In this document: piece by piece, positions 13,801 through 54,800 of the stretch
Layout of the letters: every line of letters starts with the position of its first letter
How positions within the stretch are numbered: the first letter of the stretch is position 1
Origin: Erinaceus europaeus
Lineage: Eukaryota; Chordata; Mammalia; Eulipotyphla; Erinaceidae
Direction: 5' to 3'
Assembly (NCBI RefSeq): GCF_950295315.1
Contig: NW_026647662.1
Span: 1-64,000 of the forward strand
Length of the DNA: 64,000 nt
The notes under the pieces: generated by a model
What the model was told of the DNA's origin: nothing
What the model saw: only the letters and a program-made list of their open reading frames with translations
Databases searched by the model: none
Made by a program: the position numbers and the translations under genes

Positions 13801-16800
13801 TACTAAGGAAAAGCTTCATACTATTGAACAAGCCTGGGAGCAAGAAACTAGATTAGGTTGGTGTTATAACTCCAATAATATGAAATGATAAAATACTGTC
13901 AAAAGATAAGATTTTGTATAAGTTTCCATTCTTTACCAGGAGAACAGGCAATATTTTGATAAAAATGAGCTCTCTGATTAATGGGTTAATTTAGCAGGCA
14001 ATTGTTGAGTAATTCCTTTGCACTAAAGTATCTAACAAGATTTAGTTTTCATTTCTTAAGCTATATTTATTTCTATTGAAGTCATATAGCTTAAAAGTGA
14101 CTAATCTTTAGCAGTTCTGAAGCATTTCACAATAAAAACTGGTGATAATCTTGCTTTACCTGTCTCTTTATTACAGCTTCCCTGGCAGTGGAGTATAAAA
14201 GTGTCTCTCCTTCTCTCTTCCTGTCCTCTCTACCTCTTTCTGACTCTTCTTCCAAAATAGAAGAGTTGAGCAGCCACCTGGCTTCAGTGAAAACCCTGGT
14301 GGCAAAAAAGTAAAAAGAAAAAGAAAAGCTTTTCTTGGTTCTTGACATTTTTAAATCTTGGTTTTAAAAATACCACTTTTTTAATTCCAGAAAATTGATC
14401 AATGTTGGACTTTTGTACTCTGCCATCTAGGAAATCTCAAAGCACAAGAGCTTGTCCATCACGCAGTAGACCCTTGTGGTGCGCCTGTCTTCTTTATCTA
14501 AGATTAACACTAAGTAGTACGAAGACGTTTACGCTGTTTACAGATTGGTTTTAGTGCATTTTCTTTCCCTTCCCTTCATGGAGCTTAAGGTTACCTCAGG
14601 CTCAGGGTCATCTGAGTGACCTGATTCCACAGTAGATTGGCTAACTAGGATTTTAAGTTTTGCTCAGTCATCTGTTACTGCTTGTTCCTTGATCTGTGCT
14701 TGCTGTAGCTATTCTCAAACTGGATATTTAAAAATATACTCAGATAAAATAACAAGTACCTTAAAATGCTAAATCAGTCATCACAACACTCGTTTCCATC
14801 TAACACTCGTACCATGATTAGTCTGAAGTTCTATGGCTCAGACTTGTCAAACTAGAAAGACAGGGTATGTGTATGTTACTGGTGGTGTAAAAAACTATTT
14901 TACAAATTTAAAAAAAAAGTAGTATAGACGGGGCTGGGCGGTAGTGCAGCAGGTTAAGCGCACATGGCACAAAGTGCAAGGACCTAAGTGAGGATCCCAG
15001 TGCAAACCCCAGCTCCCCACCTGCAGGGGGGGTCACTTCACAAGCGATGAAGCAGGTCTGTAGGTGTCTATCTTTCTCTCTTCCTCTCTGTGTTCCCCTC
15101 CTCTCTTGATTTCTCTCTGTCCTATCCAACAACAACAGCTATAACAACAATAACAACCACAACAAGGGCAACAACAACAACAAAAAATAGTATAGACATA
15201 TGAACAGGGCGTAACAGAGCTAAGGGGGGAATCCCTTTCTGTCATAATGTAAAAAAGGTTCACGTGTTTCCAGGAAACATTTGTCTCTTTGTGTCTAAAA
15301 TATTGGAGATGTACTTTTGATATGAATGACATGACATTGATATAGTACTGTTGTATTTAGGGAATGAATCCAACATGGATAAGACAAAGAAATCAATAAC
15401 CAACAGTGAGATTGTTTCTATATCAAAAAAAATCACTATGCTGGAGATGAAGGAGTTAAATGAAAGGCAGCGGGCAGAGCATTCTCAAAAAATGTATGAA
15501 CACATGCGGACTTCATTCAAGCAAATGGAAGAACGTAATTTTGAGTTGGAAACCAAGTTTGCTGAGGTTTGACCTAATTTTTATAGTAGAGAATAAATAA
15601 GTTGTCCGGGAGGTGGCACAGTGGATAAAGCATTGGACTCGAAAGCATGAGGTCCCGAGTTCAATCCCCAGCAGCATATGTACCAGAGAGATGTCTGGTT
15701 CTCTCTCTCCTTCTATCTTTCTCATTAATAAATAAATAACATCTTAGAAAAAGAGAGAACCCCCTCTACGTCGTCCTCTGCCCTCATGTTCCAGGACCTG
15801 AACCTTCCCCCTCACCGCAGTCTTTTACTTTGGTTCTTCTTCTTCTTCTAGCGTTTGCCCTTCTTCTGTAGCCAGTCAACAGCGTCAGGTTGAGCCTGAT
15901 GTAAAGTTTCGAGACCTCCTTTGAATCTGGAGAGGTGGCAGTCATTGACTATGTGGGTCATAGTCTGTCTGGAGCCGCAGGGGCAGTTTGGGTCGTCTTT
16001 ACTTTGGTGCAATACACCAACTCCAGTCCAAGTCTTGCTTTGTGTATTCTTATTTTTCAACTTCTTTTTTTTTTATGAGTGATTTAATAATGATCGACAA
16101 GACTTTGGGATAAGAAGGGTACAATTCCATACAATTCCCACCACCAGAGTGTCAAGTCCCATCCCTTCCATTGGAAGGTTCCTATTGTTTATCCCTCTGG
16201 GAATATGAAGAGAGGGAGAATAAATAATAAGTCATGGTAGACAGTAGTGTCATAAAAGGTTTTTTGATTCTCTTATCTTACTAGCCCTTAGATACTTACT
16301 TGGGCTTTAATAGCTGAAATGGCTTCAAAGAAAACATACTTACATATTTCTATAAATAAATTTTTATTCCTCTCCATCATTATATAATTAGATTTAATGT
16401 ACAAAAAGATGTCAGTTTTCAGTAGGGGAATTGCCATCCTATTATTTGACATCTTCAGAGCTTCACCACTCCAGCTGACTACTTCAGGCTTTAGAAAGCC
16501 AGACAGGGAGGCAAAGAAAGAGAGTGAAATAGACCACAGCCCAAGACTTCTGAGTCAATGCTGTGGAGGCTGGGCTTGAACCTGGCTAATAAACATGACA
16601 CACCAGCAAACTATCTGAGTTATTTTGCCAACCCTCATTTAGTAATTATTTAATGTGTCTGTTACATACCAGACACAGGGGTGGGGCAGGGAGATTAACA
16701 GAAATGAATAGTAAGCTCTGCTTTTGGTGATATTATATTCTGATGGGAGGTTTTCAGCTTTTGATACAGTCAGAATTATTAAGTTGGCTGACCAAAAAAT

Positions 16801-41791: not shown

Positions 41792-44439
41792 CTATTCCTG
41801 TATTTTCTGTGTTATAAATCTGCTTTCTCCTTATGTGAGCTGTAACTATAGGGCTCCCTTGGAGTTTTCTCCCTCTGTGCTTCTACTCAGCATCATGTTT
41901 CATGTTTCAAGAATGTTGTGTTTAGGCCAAGAAATACCAGAGGAAAAGAAAACTAAATGAACTACCTTTGTTAAATCCCACAGAGCTGATAAACTGAAAC
42001 TTACTTTGCATAAGTAACTAAAAACAACTGGCATCACTTGCTAATCCTTGAAATTCTCTCCCTCCCTCCAACACCCTTATAGAGACAGAGAAGTGGAGAA
42101 GGGGAGGGAAGTAATGAGAGAGAGGGTAAAAAAAAAAAAAAAAAAAAAAAGGTTAAGGGAGAAGGAAGAAGGTAGACAGGGAGGGAGAGACACTTGCAAC
42201 TTTGATCCGCCACTTGTGAAATTGCCCACTGCGTGTGAGGATCAGAGAGAGAGCAAAGAGTCTAGGGCCAAGAAGAAAGCTCACTTGGGAGACTGCCCAT
42301 TTCAAGTATGGCTCCCACCACCCCAAGGGAAGCTCTGCCTCAGTCAAGGTAGAATAGTAAAACTACTGAGCAATTCAGCCGAATCCATGTGCTGTGTCTC
42401 ATTATGGAGGGCCTTGAAGGTCACACAGACTTGTAGACTTGATGGAACAGATTGTTACTGCAGAAGCCATTTTAAATCTTTAAGCTTCCCAGAAACACGT
42501 GGAATTAGTATGTGATATCTGAACACTAGTGGGTGTTTTCATTCAACCATCTTACTTGATTGGATATAAACAGATTCATGCTTTTAAAATAGGAATTGGT
42601 ATTTCTGTTAATGTAACTTGTTAACTCAAGGCCGAAAGGATCCCTGCACTGGATTTTCTGTGGTGGAAGTTTCATAATATAAATAGACATGCCCTAACTT
42701 AACTTTGTGAAGTTTGTAGCATTTAAAGTAACCACTGTGGTAGTAAATACATTACACATTTGTCTTTCTTATCTGCATTGTAATGCAGTAACATAGTGAA
42801 AAGTTCACTTGATACTTGCTATTTGTAGAACTCACCAAGCCCTGCCCCGAGATTCTGTTATAGAAGATTTACATTTACAAAATAGATACCTCCAGGAGAA
42901 ACTTCACTCTCTTGAAAAGCAGATTTCAAAGGCTACATTTTCTAGGCCTTCAGTAAGTATACATCTTCTTCTTTTTCTTTTTAAATTTTCTTTCTTTTTT
43001 ATTTTATTCCCTTTTGTTGCCCCTGTTGTTTTTTTATTGTTGTAGTTATTGTTGTTGTTATTGATGTCATTGTTGTTGGATAGGACAGAGAGAAATAGAG
43101 AGGGGAGGGTAAGACAGAGAGGGGGAGAGAAAGACAGACCCCTGCACACCTGCTTCACCGCCTGTGAAGCGACTCCCCTACAGGTGGGGAGCCGGGGGCT
43201 CGAACTGGGATCCTTACGCTGTTCCTTGCCCTTTGCGCCACGTGCGCTTAACCAACGCTGTGCTACCGCCCCACTCCCATTTTCTTCTTTTTCATCCCTC
43301 CATTGTTAAGGACTAAGGGTCACATCCATTTTCACCTGCACCTAGTCAAAGCCCTTAGGTTCCTCTCATTCATATCAATGCAGTAAGTTCAACTTTTCCT
43401 TTTAGTGTGAACTACTATGTGCTAACTTTAATACACCTTTCCCATTAACAGTAAACTTACATAAGGCTTGACATGAAACCTTACTACAAATGATTTCTAG
43501 AGAACTGAACTGTACTTTTATAAATGTTGCTATGGTGAGAACATAGAATTAGATAAAAGAATGTTACGGCATTATTTTTTATCAGCATGCGTGCTGTTTC
43601 TGTTTCCTATTATAAAGACATTAGGATAGAACTGTTGCGTCCTTTTAAAACACTGTGTATATTTTTGTTAACTTTTTTTCATCTTCTCATGCTTCATCTC
43701 TTTCTTTTGCTTTAAGCAAAAACTGTTAAGTGACACGGCTACGCTTTCTACCCTTGCTACCAGCGCTGATACATACAGGTTTAATATGTTTCACAAAAAG
43801 AGCATTTTACACAGGAACCAAAAATCACTTGACATGTTCAGAATTAAAAGTAGGAAGGAGTTAGATGTCAGGGACAATTTTTCTTCTCAGGTACCCAGAA
43901 ATAGTCTACAGTGTTACACTTATGGAGAAAAGCATAAAGCAAAAGGTAGCGTAGCTCCTTCTGAGTTAAATAAACCTGAAGAAATATCCAGCTCGAAGTC
44001 AAGTCCATGTAGGTCAAGCAGCAGCCCCTCAGCAGGTGTTAACACTAATTTTGAAAATGAACCAGACTCTGAAGTTTCTAAAGTTGAGGAAATGAATCAG
44101 CACTGCTGTGGAAAGCAGGAGAAGGGAGTGAATGAGCTAGACAAGAATGAGAAAGGCACGGGACATGTCGCTGAAGACGTGAGCCACAGCAACCACAAGG
44201 ATCCAGAAGACTCTCAGACCGTCCGTGACTGCGCCCCAGCTGCTGTGAATCCCTGGGCCGAGCAAGGTGCTCAGGCATACTCAGCAGCGGATGGCCCAGG
44301 CCAGCCAAGAAATGAATCGCCCCAGGTTTGAGCACAAAGTGGTTCTTGATGTCTTTGCGAGCTGAGTTTTTCAATAGCAAGTAGCATGTCTATATAGTGT
44401 AGATGGAAACAATCATGTAGGATTTAATATATATATATA

Positions 44440-44473
<34 letters not shown>

Positions 44474-47400
44474 CATGTAGATGTATTCATATGTATATAA
44501 ATGCAGCGCAGCTGTTAAAAATGGAAGTCATCTCCTCCGCCACATCTTGAATGGACCCGAAAGTATCGTGTTGAGTGAGCTAAGCCAGAAAGAGAAGGGC
44601 TTACACTGGATGATCTGACGGGCAGTAAGGAAAAACATAAGGTTATACTAAGACTAGGTGAGACAGATTGCACCAAAGACTCTGGGGAAAGGGTAGAGGG
44701 GCTGGAGTGCATGATGATGGTAAAGAGCCCAGGTTGGGGGCAGAAAGTGTCTTGCAGACCTACCTGTAGTGGGGAGATGAAAGGCTGTTTCCGTGTGTTG
44801 ACAGCTGTGCTGTCACAACCATTAACACCCAAGTGGAAATAATAAAAGGACGATAAAAGACACACACAGAGAGAGAGAGAGGAAAAACACAAAGTAAAAC
44901 ACGGACTGGGTTTGGTCTATTGCACCAGAGCATGAGACTCTGAGAACAGAGGGGTAGGGAGTGGGGCTGGGAGTCTATGGGGTCCTGGAGTGTGTTGGAG
45001 AATGCCAGTCCCTGTGTAGGCACCAGATGCTGGGCTAGCTTCATGGGTGTGAGACAGACAACCAGGGACTCATGTCTGAGCTGGGAAGCCATGCTGGCTT
45101 TATTCATCTGCATTTATACTCTCCAGGAATGAAGTGGTAGGGTGTAAAAACAGGGTGTGACTAGGAGAGGGGGCGGAGCGAAAAGAGAGTTGGACAATAA
45201 CAAATAGAAGACATGTCAGAGATGTTTGTTTTGCCTCAGAGAGTTTTGTTGATAATTCAGCGTGCTCTAAAAATCTCCCTGTATGGAAAACTACACTGTA
45301 GTGAATGTCACCAATTATTGTTAAAGATGCTATTTGGGGGGGTGAGGTGTGATGGTGGTAGTAGCTGTGGCGCACCTGGTTGAGCGCACGTTACAATGAG
45401 CAAGAACCCAGGTTCGAGCTCTGGGTCCCCACCTGCAGAGGGAAAGCTTTGCGAGTGGTGAAGCAGGGCTCTGTCTTTCCCCCTCTCTATCACCCCATTC
45501 CCTCTCAATTTCTGGCTATCTCTATCTAATAAATAAATAAAGATAATAAAAATAATTTTTATTAAAGAGATGCCATCTGGGACCCTAGTGTACAAGGCAA
45601 GCCATGTGTCATACCAAATGTTTTTGTGGTTATTGACTAATCATTGATTTACAGGACTACATAGGTTTCAGAAGTCTAGTTTCACGTCAGCTCACCATCA
45701 AAGTTCCATTACCATTCTCCACTGTCAGATTGAGCCCTTCTGGCTTTTTCTTACACCATGTGTTTTCCCTCCCCCTGTGTTAGCTACCATCTTATTCTCA
45801 TTCTGTTTTGTTTTGTTACTATTCTTGCATTGTTTCTGCATGTCCCACATGAATAAAACCATTCAAATTTGCCTGTCTCTTTCTGGCTTATTTCACTTAG
45901 CATAATCACCCTGAGTCCAACCCATATTGTTGGAACAATTAAGGTTTCATTTCTAGAGTTGACTAGTATTCCTTTGAGTATATACACCACATCTTTGTTG
46001 CCCAGTCATTTGTTGATGGGCATGTAGATTGATCTCCTGTCTTAATTGTTGTGTAAATAGTGCAGCAGTGAACATAGGGGTGGATGGACATTTGAAAACT
46101 AGTGTTTTTAATATTCTAATTCAGACCACTGTATTTGCTGTTTCTTATATGCACTGTAAAAAACTATTACCTTTTCTTTTTCAAGTTTTCTATTTTAAGA
46201 TTGATCTTGCTTTTCTCTAATGCTTTTCTGTCACTTTCTCCTCTTCCCTTTTAACATATGTAGTGTTTCCAAATCCAGTATGTTTTCCATGACTTCTACT
46301 ATTGGAGCATACTTCTTTTTCTAACTTTTTCTTTCTTTCTGAAGACTTCAGGAATAGAGTCAGAAGATCATTATCAAAAAGAACAAGAGCTTCAGAGGGA
46401 AAACTTGAAGTTGTCATCTGAAAATATAGAACTAAAATTTCAGCTTGAGCAAGCAAATAAAGATTTACCAAGACTAAAGGTAAGCTTAATGTTATTATGA
46501 TCTTTTTGAAAAACCTAGCATCTAAACCCGCCCCCTTGGTGGTTATGTTTACCATATACTTAAGAAAAAGTCAAAAAGAAGACTAAATCAAAAATAAACC
46601 TATGGGATTACATCAAATTAAAAAGCTTCTGCACAGCAGAAGAAGCCATCACCCGGGAGCCAGGTGGTAACACAGTGGGCTAAGCGCAGGTGGCGCAAAG
46701 CGCAAGGACCAGCGTAAGGATTCTGGTTCAAGCCCCCAGCTCTCCACCTGCAGGGGAGTCGCTTCACAGGCGGTGAGGCAGGTCTGCAGGTGTCTGTCTT
46801 TCTTTCCCCCTCTCTGTCTTCCCCTCCTCTCTCCATTTCTCTCTGTCCTGTCCAACAACGATGACAACAATAAAACAACAAAGGCAACAAAAGGGAATAA
46901 ATAAATATTAAAAAAAAAGAAACCATCACCCAAACAAAGAGACCTCCACAGAATGGGAGATCTTTACATGCCATACATCAGACAAGAAGCTAATAACCGA
47001 AATATATAAAGAACTCACTGAACTTAGCAACAAGAAAACAAATGACCCCATCCAAAAATGGGGAGAGAGGTAAACAGAATAGTCTCCATAACAGAGATCT
47101 AAACGGCCAATAAACACATAAAAAAAGGGGGCCAGGTGATGGTGTACCTGATTGAGTGCACACACTGCGATGCGCAAGGACCCGGGTTCAAGTCCCTGGT
47201 CTCCACCTACAGGGGGAAAGCTTCACAAGTGGTGAAGCAGGGCTACAGGTGTCTCTCTGTCTCTCTCCCTCTCTATTTCCCCTTTCCCTCTAGATTTCTG
47301 GCTGTCTCTATCGACTAAATAAATAAAAATAAAAAAACACATGAGAAAATACTCCAAGTTGTCAGAGAAATGCAAATAAACACAACAATGAGATACCAAA

Positions 47401-51800: not shown

Positions 51801-54800
51801 GATACTGACCACTGAAAAAATGACCAATCTTGAGCTAGAAAATGAAAAGTTGAAGGTAATTTTTTAATGTGATTATTTTTTGTTATTATCTTACTATTGT
51901 AGGTTTTATGGGAAAAAATATACTCATACCATATAAAATAGCTTTAATGTATACATGAATTTTATTCTTACAGAATTTATTATAAATAAGACCGGGAATA
52001 CTTGGAATAGTCTGCATGCTCATTATTACTTTAAGACCAACAATCCTCACTCTGATAGCATAAAATAATTTGCACTGTGTATTTTTTAAAAATACAGATG
52101 CTGGGAGTCGGGCGGTAGTGCAGCAGGTTAAAAGTAGGTGGGGCAAAGCACAGGACCTGCAAAAGGATCCCGGTTCGAGGCCCCGGCTCCCCACCTGCAG
52201 GAGAGTCGCTTCACAGGAGGTGAAAAACAACAAGGGCAACAATAGGGAAAAGAAATTAAAAAAAAACTTTAAAGAAATAAAGTAATACAGATGCATACCT
52301 CCCCAATCCTGAGATTTTTTAGAATGTTTCTTTTTTATATATTTATTTCCTTTTTGTTGCTCTTTTATTGTTGTGGTTATTGTTGTTGTTACTGATGTTG
52401 TCATTGTTGAATAGGACAGAGAGAAATGGAGAGAGGAGGGGAAGACCGAGACGGGGAGAGAAAGACAGACACCTGCAGACCTGCTTCACCGCCTGTGAAG
52501 CGACTCCCCTGCAGGTGGGGAGCCGGGGCCTCGAACCGGGATCCTTATGCCGGTCCTTGTGCTTAGCGCCACATGCACTTAACCCACTGTGTTACCACCC
52601 GACCCCTTTTTAGAACATTTCATTTTCTAATCTAGATCTAGTTGAATGATTTCTATTGTGGGATTCAATGATTTTTTTTTTTTAAAGTCATTAGTTCATA
52701 TAGCCAGCGCTGAGAGTCTGCTTTAGACGCAGGGAGATTTTCACTGTAATCCTATCAAATAAGGTCTCAAAAACTACTTTGATTCTTATGTGTTGATAAG
52801 ACTGTCTTCTTTATGTTGATAATTATTCCTATTACTACCAGGCTGAATTAGAAAAACTTAAAATTCATCTTGGACGTCAGTTGAGCATGCACTATGAATC
52901 CAAGACCAAAGGCACAGAGAAAATTGTCGCTGAGAATGAAAGGCTTCGGAAAGAACTTAAAAAGGTCTGGCTTTCTTTACTAGTAGCTCATAAGTACCTT
53001 TATTTTTACAAATGCATCTTGGAAAAACATAAATGCAAAAACGATGAGTGTCTATTCAACGTAGAGAGGATTTTAAAATTGTGTTTTATGCCTTTTTAAA
53101 AATTATTTTTTAATGTTTTATTTATTAATGAGGAACATAGAAGGAGAGAAAAAGAACCAAGCATCACCCTGGTACATGTGCGCCGGGGACTGAACTCAGG
53201 TCCTTATGCTTGAGATTCCGATGCTTTATCCACTGCACCACCTCCCGAACCACTTAATTTTTTTTATATTTATTTATTTTCCGTTTTGTTGCCCTTGTTG
53301 TTTTTCATCGTTGTAGTAGTTATTATTGTTGTTGTTATTACTGTTGTTAAATAGGACAGAAAGAAATGGAGAGGGGAGGGCAAGACAGAGGGGGAGAGAA
53401 AGATAGACACCTGCAGACCTGTTTCACCGCCTGTGAAGCGACTCCCCTGCGAGTGGGGATCCTGACTGGAAACTGGGATCCTTCTGCAGGTCCTTGAGCT
53501 TTGTGCCACGTGCGCTTAACCCGCTGCACTACCGCCTGACTCCCCTTATGCTTTCTTTCACCATGAAATTCACTGAAAGTAAAATAAATTTAGAAGCAGT
53601 ATGCTGTAGAAGATATGCGGGCAACTTTCAAAGCCTGGTCCTGTTATTAAATGGGTTGTGAAAAATGGGCCGAGCAAGCAACCCCTGTCCATCCCTTCTC
53701 ATCTGTAATACTGGGAGTAGTAGCTTGTCCATCCCTTCTCATCTGTAATACTGGGAGTAGTAGCTTGTCCATCCCTTCTCATCTGTAATACTGGGAGTAG
53801 TAGCTTGTCCATCCCTTCTCATCTGTAATACTGGGAGTAGTAGCTTGTCCATCCCTTCTCATCTGTAATACTGGGAGTAGTAGCTTGTCCATCCCTTCTC
53901 ATCTGTAATACTGGGAGTAGTAGCTTGTCCATCCCTTCTCATCTGTAATACTGGGAGTAGTAGATGTTGAGTAAGTAGCTCAACGGATAGATTATAGGAT
54001 TCCATGCCTTCTGATTTGACCCCTAGCCCAGCATCTGATCACAGTGACGCTTATCTACCTCTGTCTGTCTCTCTCTCATGGGAAACTCTCTGCATGTGGC
54101 TCCCACAAAACCTTTAAAAATGGGATCAATAACCTTATTTCACACATCTGTGGTGGTGTGTCACGTATTTCTTCCCATGATTTAGAACACCTACACTGCC
54201 CTAATAATTATTTGAAAGTACTCTGCTAAATAATCAGTAAGACTTTTTTTTTTCTTTTCTGCTTAAATGACAAAATATATTTCCTGCCTCTAGGGAGACA
54301 GCTATTAGTTACATGGTTGATGATCCAGTGAACATGTCAAAGTTTAATATTTTTAAACTAATTTGAATCGTAATATATTGTGGGTGTGAGACTGTCCTTT
54401 CAAAGTGAATGTCTGATAATAACCTGTGATAGGCACATATAGATTTTTATACTTGTAACTAGATCTCGGAAGAAGTAGGAAAGCAGGCATCTTTTAAATT
54501 TTGAAGACATAGATACTATCAAGTTATTCCAAAAATACTGCACACAAAGATGGCAGTTAAAGTAACCAGTGAAGTAACATGCTCGCCAATGTATTTCTCT
54601 AAAATAATTTACAAGATGATGTTTTAGTTAGTCTGATCATTTTGCTATAGAGTAAGAGAAATGTGGGGTTTGTAGTTGAACTTTAATGAGCATTTAGAAC
54701 TTTGGGTTCTATTTTTCATCTTATTTATAGTGCTGATTTTGCATGTGGAAAAGCAGTCTTTTCTTTTTTTTTTTTTTCCTCCAGGGTTATTGCTGGGCTT

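Follow-up and report, generated by a model that had tools for sequence, protein, structure and literature searches.

A predicted optional exon in hedgehog CEP290 intron 44 corresponds to an old exon in the CEP290 models of other amniotes

Introduction

The ciliary gene RPGR contains a long, low-complexity optional exon, ORF15, which gives rise to an alternative form of the protein. Within CEP290 itself, both a very short optional exon and a pathological extra exon are known. The former is a photoreceptor-specific Cep290 microexon of at most 30 nt, the inclusion of which is promoted by Musashi 1, and mice without it display no visual defect (PMC4991804, PMC9509328). The latter, LCA10 pseudoexon X, lies in intron 26 of the gene; it is mutation-born and carries a stop (PMC7917623). 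RPGR ORF15 has been named as a retina-specific exon (PMC11450717).

Here we describe a 609-nt candidate exon in intron 44 of hedgehog CEP290. It shares with the photoreceptor microexon the status of an optional exon of the same gene, but the microexon is too short to be the hedgehog exon, as it does not exceed 30 nt. The likeness to RPGR ORF15 lies in a ciliary gene having a long optional exon, although in protein models the CEP290 exon also splices onward, and it is not a repeat. As with pseudoexon X, an extra exon lies in a CEP290 intron, but the hedgehog exon is conserved and open; a mutation-born pseudoexon was ruled out by the conserved reading frame in homologues. By far the nearest counterparts are predicted long CEP290 isoforms and the UniProt isoform Q9TU23-2, in which a homologous segment occupies the same junction of the same gene, in the same phase and with the same ends. 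The hedgehog copy differs from these in being limited to the first AG of a tandem acceptor, and no listed hedgehog model includes it. In the retrieved portions of the open-licence literature searched, we found no description of an exon in CEP290 intron 44, and the match to "intron 44" concerned ABCA4, not CEP290; the exon is thus apparently unremarked in print.

Results

The window, i.e. the whole 64,000-nucleotide stretch of hedgehog DNA that was analysed, has as its longest listed stop-to-stop frame the interval 43672-44331, comprising 219 sense codons followed by TGA; the runner-up has 199 codons (51886-52485, minus strand). The remaining five frames across 43717-44325 contain 7 to 25 stops. 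CEP290 exons were mapped using as a guide an approximate human CEP290 protein sequence, 2480 letters in length (PMC6658666 gives 2479 residues for the human protein). This located 30 plus-strand exons, with a stop-free joined translation of 1607 residues, of which a block of 1505 residues is identical to the hedgehog model P0077 (1532 aa). P0077, the sole hedgehog model among the matches listed (120 of 678), skips the 203-codon exon. Exon 44 (human-equivalent number; 42829-42952, plus strand) ends in phase 0 at TCA/GTAAGT, exon 45 (46345-46479, plus strand) begins in phase 0, and both are identical to P0077.

Between them, on the same strand, 43717-44325 forms an open exon of 609 nt, or 203 codons, running from phase 0 to phase 0. 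It is preceded by a 3' splice site region (43668-43716, plus strand) with TTAAC at 43668-43672 and a pyrimidine tract free of AG until the final TTTAAG, which ends at 43716. CAG/GTTTGA at 44323-44331 closes the exon, placing the 5' splice site GTTTGA at 44326-44331 (plus strand), where reading through gives one Val and a stop; exon 28 has a GAG/GTTTGA donor at 15567. The preliminary description had reported the frame, both sets of splice motifs with a stop just past the donor, the hexamer shared with exon 28, and an exon of 203 codons fitting between two phase-0 exons, and all of these were reproduced by recomputation and exon mapping.

A first protein search with the encoded segment returned a single homologue, P0002, with 50% identity over the whole segment, ends included, and a two-sequence profile search returned 19 homologous proteins (E 7e-140 to 9e-29). 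We also performed a flank search, in which a CEP290-sized query combined exons 44 and 45 with the exon as it occurs in vaquita; it matched 678 proteins, of which 120 were listed. Among these 120, the segment is carried by 63, with 45 splicing it into exon 45 (30 in full, 15 in part) and 18 ending within it (17, plus P0057, in which exon 44 was unparsed and which ends in NEASQV), while 14 have 2 to 18 residues at the junction and 43 skip the exon. The exon-bearing rows (P0021-P0084 minus P0077) represent 47 species, 42 mammals and 5 reptiles, and nearly all are predicted models. Across 31 extracted rows the segment always begins directly after exon 44, and cassette rows end in Q before exon 45; placental segments mostly open with NLLC or QNLLC. 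Dog XP_022258964.1 (2685 aa) exemplifies the full cassette; long isoforms are also predicted in donkey (isoform X3), camel, cats, seals and bats, and a segment lies at the same exon 44/45 junction in koala, opossum, turtles and lizards.

As judged from these alignments, the hedgehog segment matches placental CEP290 models in sequence, place, phase and both ends, and marsupial and reptile models too in place, phase and ends. We put at roughly 0.85 the probability that 43717-44325 is orthologous to an old optional CEP290 exon, which the hedgehog would still use. The exon is real, old and most likely optional, new for the listed hedgehog model and already present in the predicted isoforms of many species. 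The proposal of an optional in-phase CEP290 exon, either cassette or terminal, is borne out by the models of other amniotes, which display both forms at this junction, and the suggested comparison of the 203 residues with predicted CEP290 isoforms found matches in many species. The label "undescribed" was wrong for databases, as these isoforms and Q9TU23-2 hold the exon, and applies only to the listed hedgehog model and the open-licence literature searched.

Pairwise identity between the hedgehog exon and 24 placental rows is 45-60%, with 5 to 7 gaps, all of which preserve the frame (z 37 to 60). Identity falls to 29-30% for koala and opossum (z 15 and 9) and to 20-27% for five reptile rows, whose scores (z -0.5 to 2.0) are not significant alone. 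Koala and dog score z 10.8 and 9.3 against the flatback turtle, and since place, phase and ends are the same, homology of the reptile exon is probable. In a tree of the exon, bats cluster and carnivores cluster, with hedgehog falling outside the remaining placentals. When the hedgehog exon was left to drift neutrally in simulation to 47-56% identity, by substitutions without indels, a mean of 4.8 to 5.9 stops arose, with 0.5 to 1.25% of 400 runs remaining stop-free. An open frame across so many lineages argues for constraint, though protein collections keep open frames and so flatter conservation. The share of identical plus similar residues is approximately what drift alone yields, suggesting that constraint on the letters is light.

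Structure prediction gave the segment a mean pLDDT of 45.4, with no residue reaching 70. Serine makes up 13.8% of residues, and net charge is +8 over residues 1-100 and -11 over the remainder; the preliminary description of a Ser- and acid-rich insert thus stands for serine, with acid richness confined to the second half. The exon encodes a fast-evolving, Ser-rich insert that is predicted to be disordered, and light constraint would fit such a segment. Predicted disorder is also consistent with the suggested interruption of the coiled coil, within which the insert may act as a flexible spacer. No Pfam family matched the segment at E up to 10, and nucleotide orthologues were sought in viral_contigs and genome_contigs, which yielded no relative.

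Recognition of the TTTAAG acceptor and the CAG/GTTTGA donor would splice the exon between exons 44 and 45, so that about 200 flexible, Ser-rich, charged residues would interrupt the coiled coil around human position 2045 (an approximate figure, taken from the preliminary description). Skipping it would yield the usual CEP290 protein. Were the donor left unused, one Val and a stop would follow, giving CEP290 without everything encoded from exon 45 on; the stop of this terminal form is already present within the donor GTTTGA, and no other is required. The first AATAAA past the stop (44841-44846, plus strand) is a possible poly(A) signal for it, though it may occur there by chance.

The terminal form recurs in protein models, raising the question of whether the exon is exclusively an alternative last exon, with a private tail ending QV and an incidental GT. 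In keeping with this, 13 of the 18 listed terminal models end in V or L exactly at the donor (P0039, P0047, P0056, P0075 and P0076 end elsewhere), the terminal models include cow (Q9TU23-2, here P0050), sheep, muntjac, Pteropus and Molossus, and 13 of the 19 profile-search frames stop right after V at the exon end. Cattle models have L after the exon, so that the GT donor is gone, and the frame is nonetheless kept; in the listed Bos rows, Q9TU23-2 included, the exon in its full length is always terminal. We nevertheless consider an exclusively terminal exon unlikely: the 30 listed full cassettes join exon 45 in frame, Q before the donor is retained in the profile homologues amid variable preceding residues, as CAG/GT would give, and P0014 has kept QV and lost the stop. 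Dromedary models are found in both used forms (P0023 spliced, P0043 terminal), and yak P0058 joins part of the segment to exon 45.

Models also differ in where the segment begins. Jaguarundi has both starts (P0026 QNLL, P0031 NLL), and QNLL and NLL starts would imply a tandem acceptor, AAGCAG, in other species. The hedgehog reads AAGCAA, having lost the second AG, so only the first acceptor site is left. In cats, seals and vesper bats (P0059-P0068, P0070, P0071), models with an internal acceptor keep 72 or 75 residues; an in-frame CAG/GAG in hedgehog matches its position, which by alignment suggests a candidate short exon form at 44119-44325 (plus strand). Splice sites were scored with a matrix built from CEP290's own mapped sites, with left-out true sites for comparison. 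The exon's acceptor scores 2.13, exceeding just 4 of the 29 true acceptors left out and being matched by 18.5% of the other AG sites (n = 4512), and therefore looks weak; its donor scores 6.24, exceeding 9 of the 30 true donors left out and being matched by 3.2% of the other GT sites (n = 3413).

The low acceptor score and the lost second AG would suit a relic, i.e. an exon real elsewhere and no longer included in hedgehog, as would its omission from P0077 and the lack of any shrew or mole among the listed 120 of 678 proteins (rodents and elephant are likewise not among them). The hedgehog exon rate is also mildly raised, at 1.32 times that predicted from the flanks, which is no proof of relaxation, as its bootstrap interval (0.99 to 1.71) touches 1. 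Against a relic stand the frame, phase, codon length and both splice dinucleotides, all of which are intact, and the gaps relative to other placentals, all of which preserve the frame; we regard a relic as slightly less probable still than an exclusively terminal exon.

Two records name the segment as a separate protein: the "uncharacterized" vaquita and sea otter proteins among the profile matches (P0003 and P0009; LOC116760169 and LOC111142076). An independent gene nested in the intron is nonetheless highly improbable. Many profile-search homologues read through a similar pyrimidine tract (...FFCFKQ), and the vaquita, sea otter and several other records start inside the tract, continue across the acceptor and end one residue beyond the exon, suggesting that the two LOC records are unspliced readings of the exon, not genes. 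There is no conserved start codon, with records beginning at different Met codons inside the tract, and CEP290 models join the segment to exon 44. A repeat or retrocopy was ruled out, as the exon DNA has one match, itself, in the 2.72 Gb hedgehog assembly, and the next best match of the exon as protein has E 0.37.

Of 60 simulated Markov sequences (order 2, 64 kb each), 2 contained a stop-free run of at least 219 codons, so that the length of the frame is mildly unusual and alone weak evidence; nor do the splice scores decide the question of chance, with the donor middling and the acceptor low. The earlier argument that a chance frame was improbable therefore gains nothing decisive from length or splice sites and holds by homology: dozens of species have homologues that span the full length and share its ends, which makes the probability of a chance frame negligible.

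Primate models present a much shorter version of this junction. In the four listed human models (P0091-P0094) the exon 44/45 junction holds QNQ, and Aotus models have QNQ, NQ or an 18-residue form. Short forms of 2 to 18 residues, ending QNQ, NQ or QNV, occur in the monkey models P0086, P0087, P0095-P0098, P0100, P0101 and P0106, and in P0085 (cow). Two marmoset models open with QNQVCDRTMF and terminate 82 residues on, with letters unlike those of other species. The residues of the short forms resemble the first codons of the long exon, which seems to have shrunk to a microexon; the simplest reading of the sequences is that primates retain the acceptor and splice from a donor three codons further on. 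That the listed human models keep at most three codons may be a reason why the exon went unremarked.

Discussion

Beyond orthology, we tentatively propose, as a reading with rather less than even odds, that the exon forms an amniote-old three-way switch, in which CEP290 is left as usual by skipping, acquires about 200 disordered residues or is truncated, and that this switch has shrunk to a microexon of two or three codons in some primates, human included. Under such a switch, the shrinkage in human would explain why CEP290 work centred on human and mouse did not meet it. The ends of CEP290 reportedly restrain its binding to microtubules and membranes (work attributed to Drivas, 2013). A truncated CEP290 without the part encoded from exon 45 could, if the switch exists, bind differently at the cilium. 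If many mammals make the insert or the form ending after exon 44, dog, cat and farm-animal models would differ from human in their isoforms, and the human QNQ models would gain an evolutionary explanation. We found no measurements of insert-bearing or exon-44-ending CEP290 isoforms in the open-licence literature searched.

Additional features of the collected models were observed. P0020 is a 142-residue protein with an exon-like start followed by a match to PF00239, a resolvase-type family, and is probably a chimeric contig. Some CEP290 models have, within their first third, another optional stretch, about 230 to 290 residues long (P0074, opossum; also, judged by length before exon 44, P0039, P0044, P0076, P0126 and P0129), and the matching human place lies before the window start. 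Seven residues like KRLKKKN also differ between models (P0022 and P0079 versus P0030 and P0074), with KKKNEQL in 34 and RRENEQL in 73 of the 120 listed rows; this stretch would correspond to a 21-nt microexon, perhaps the photoreceptor one.
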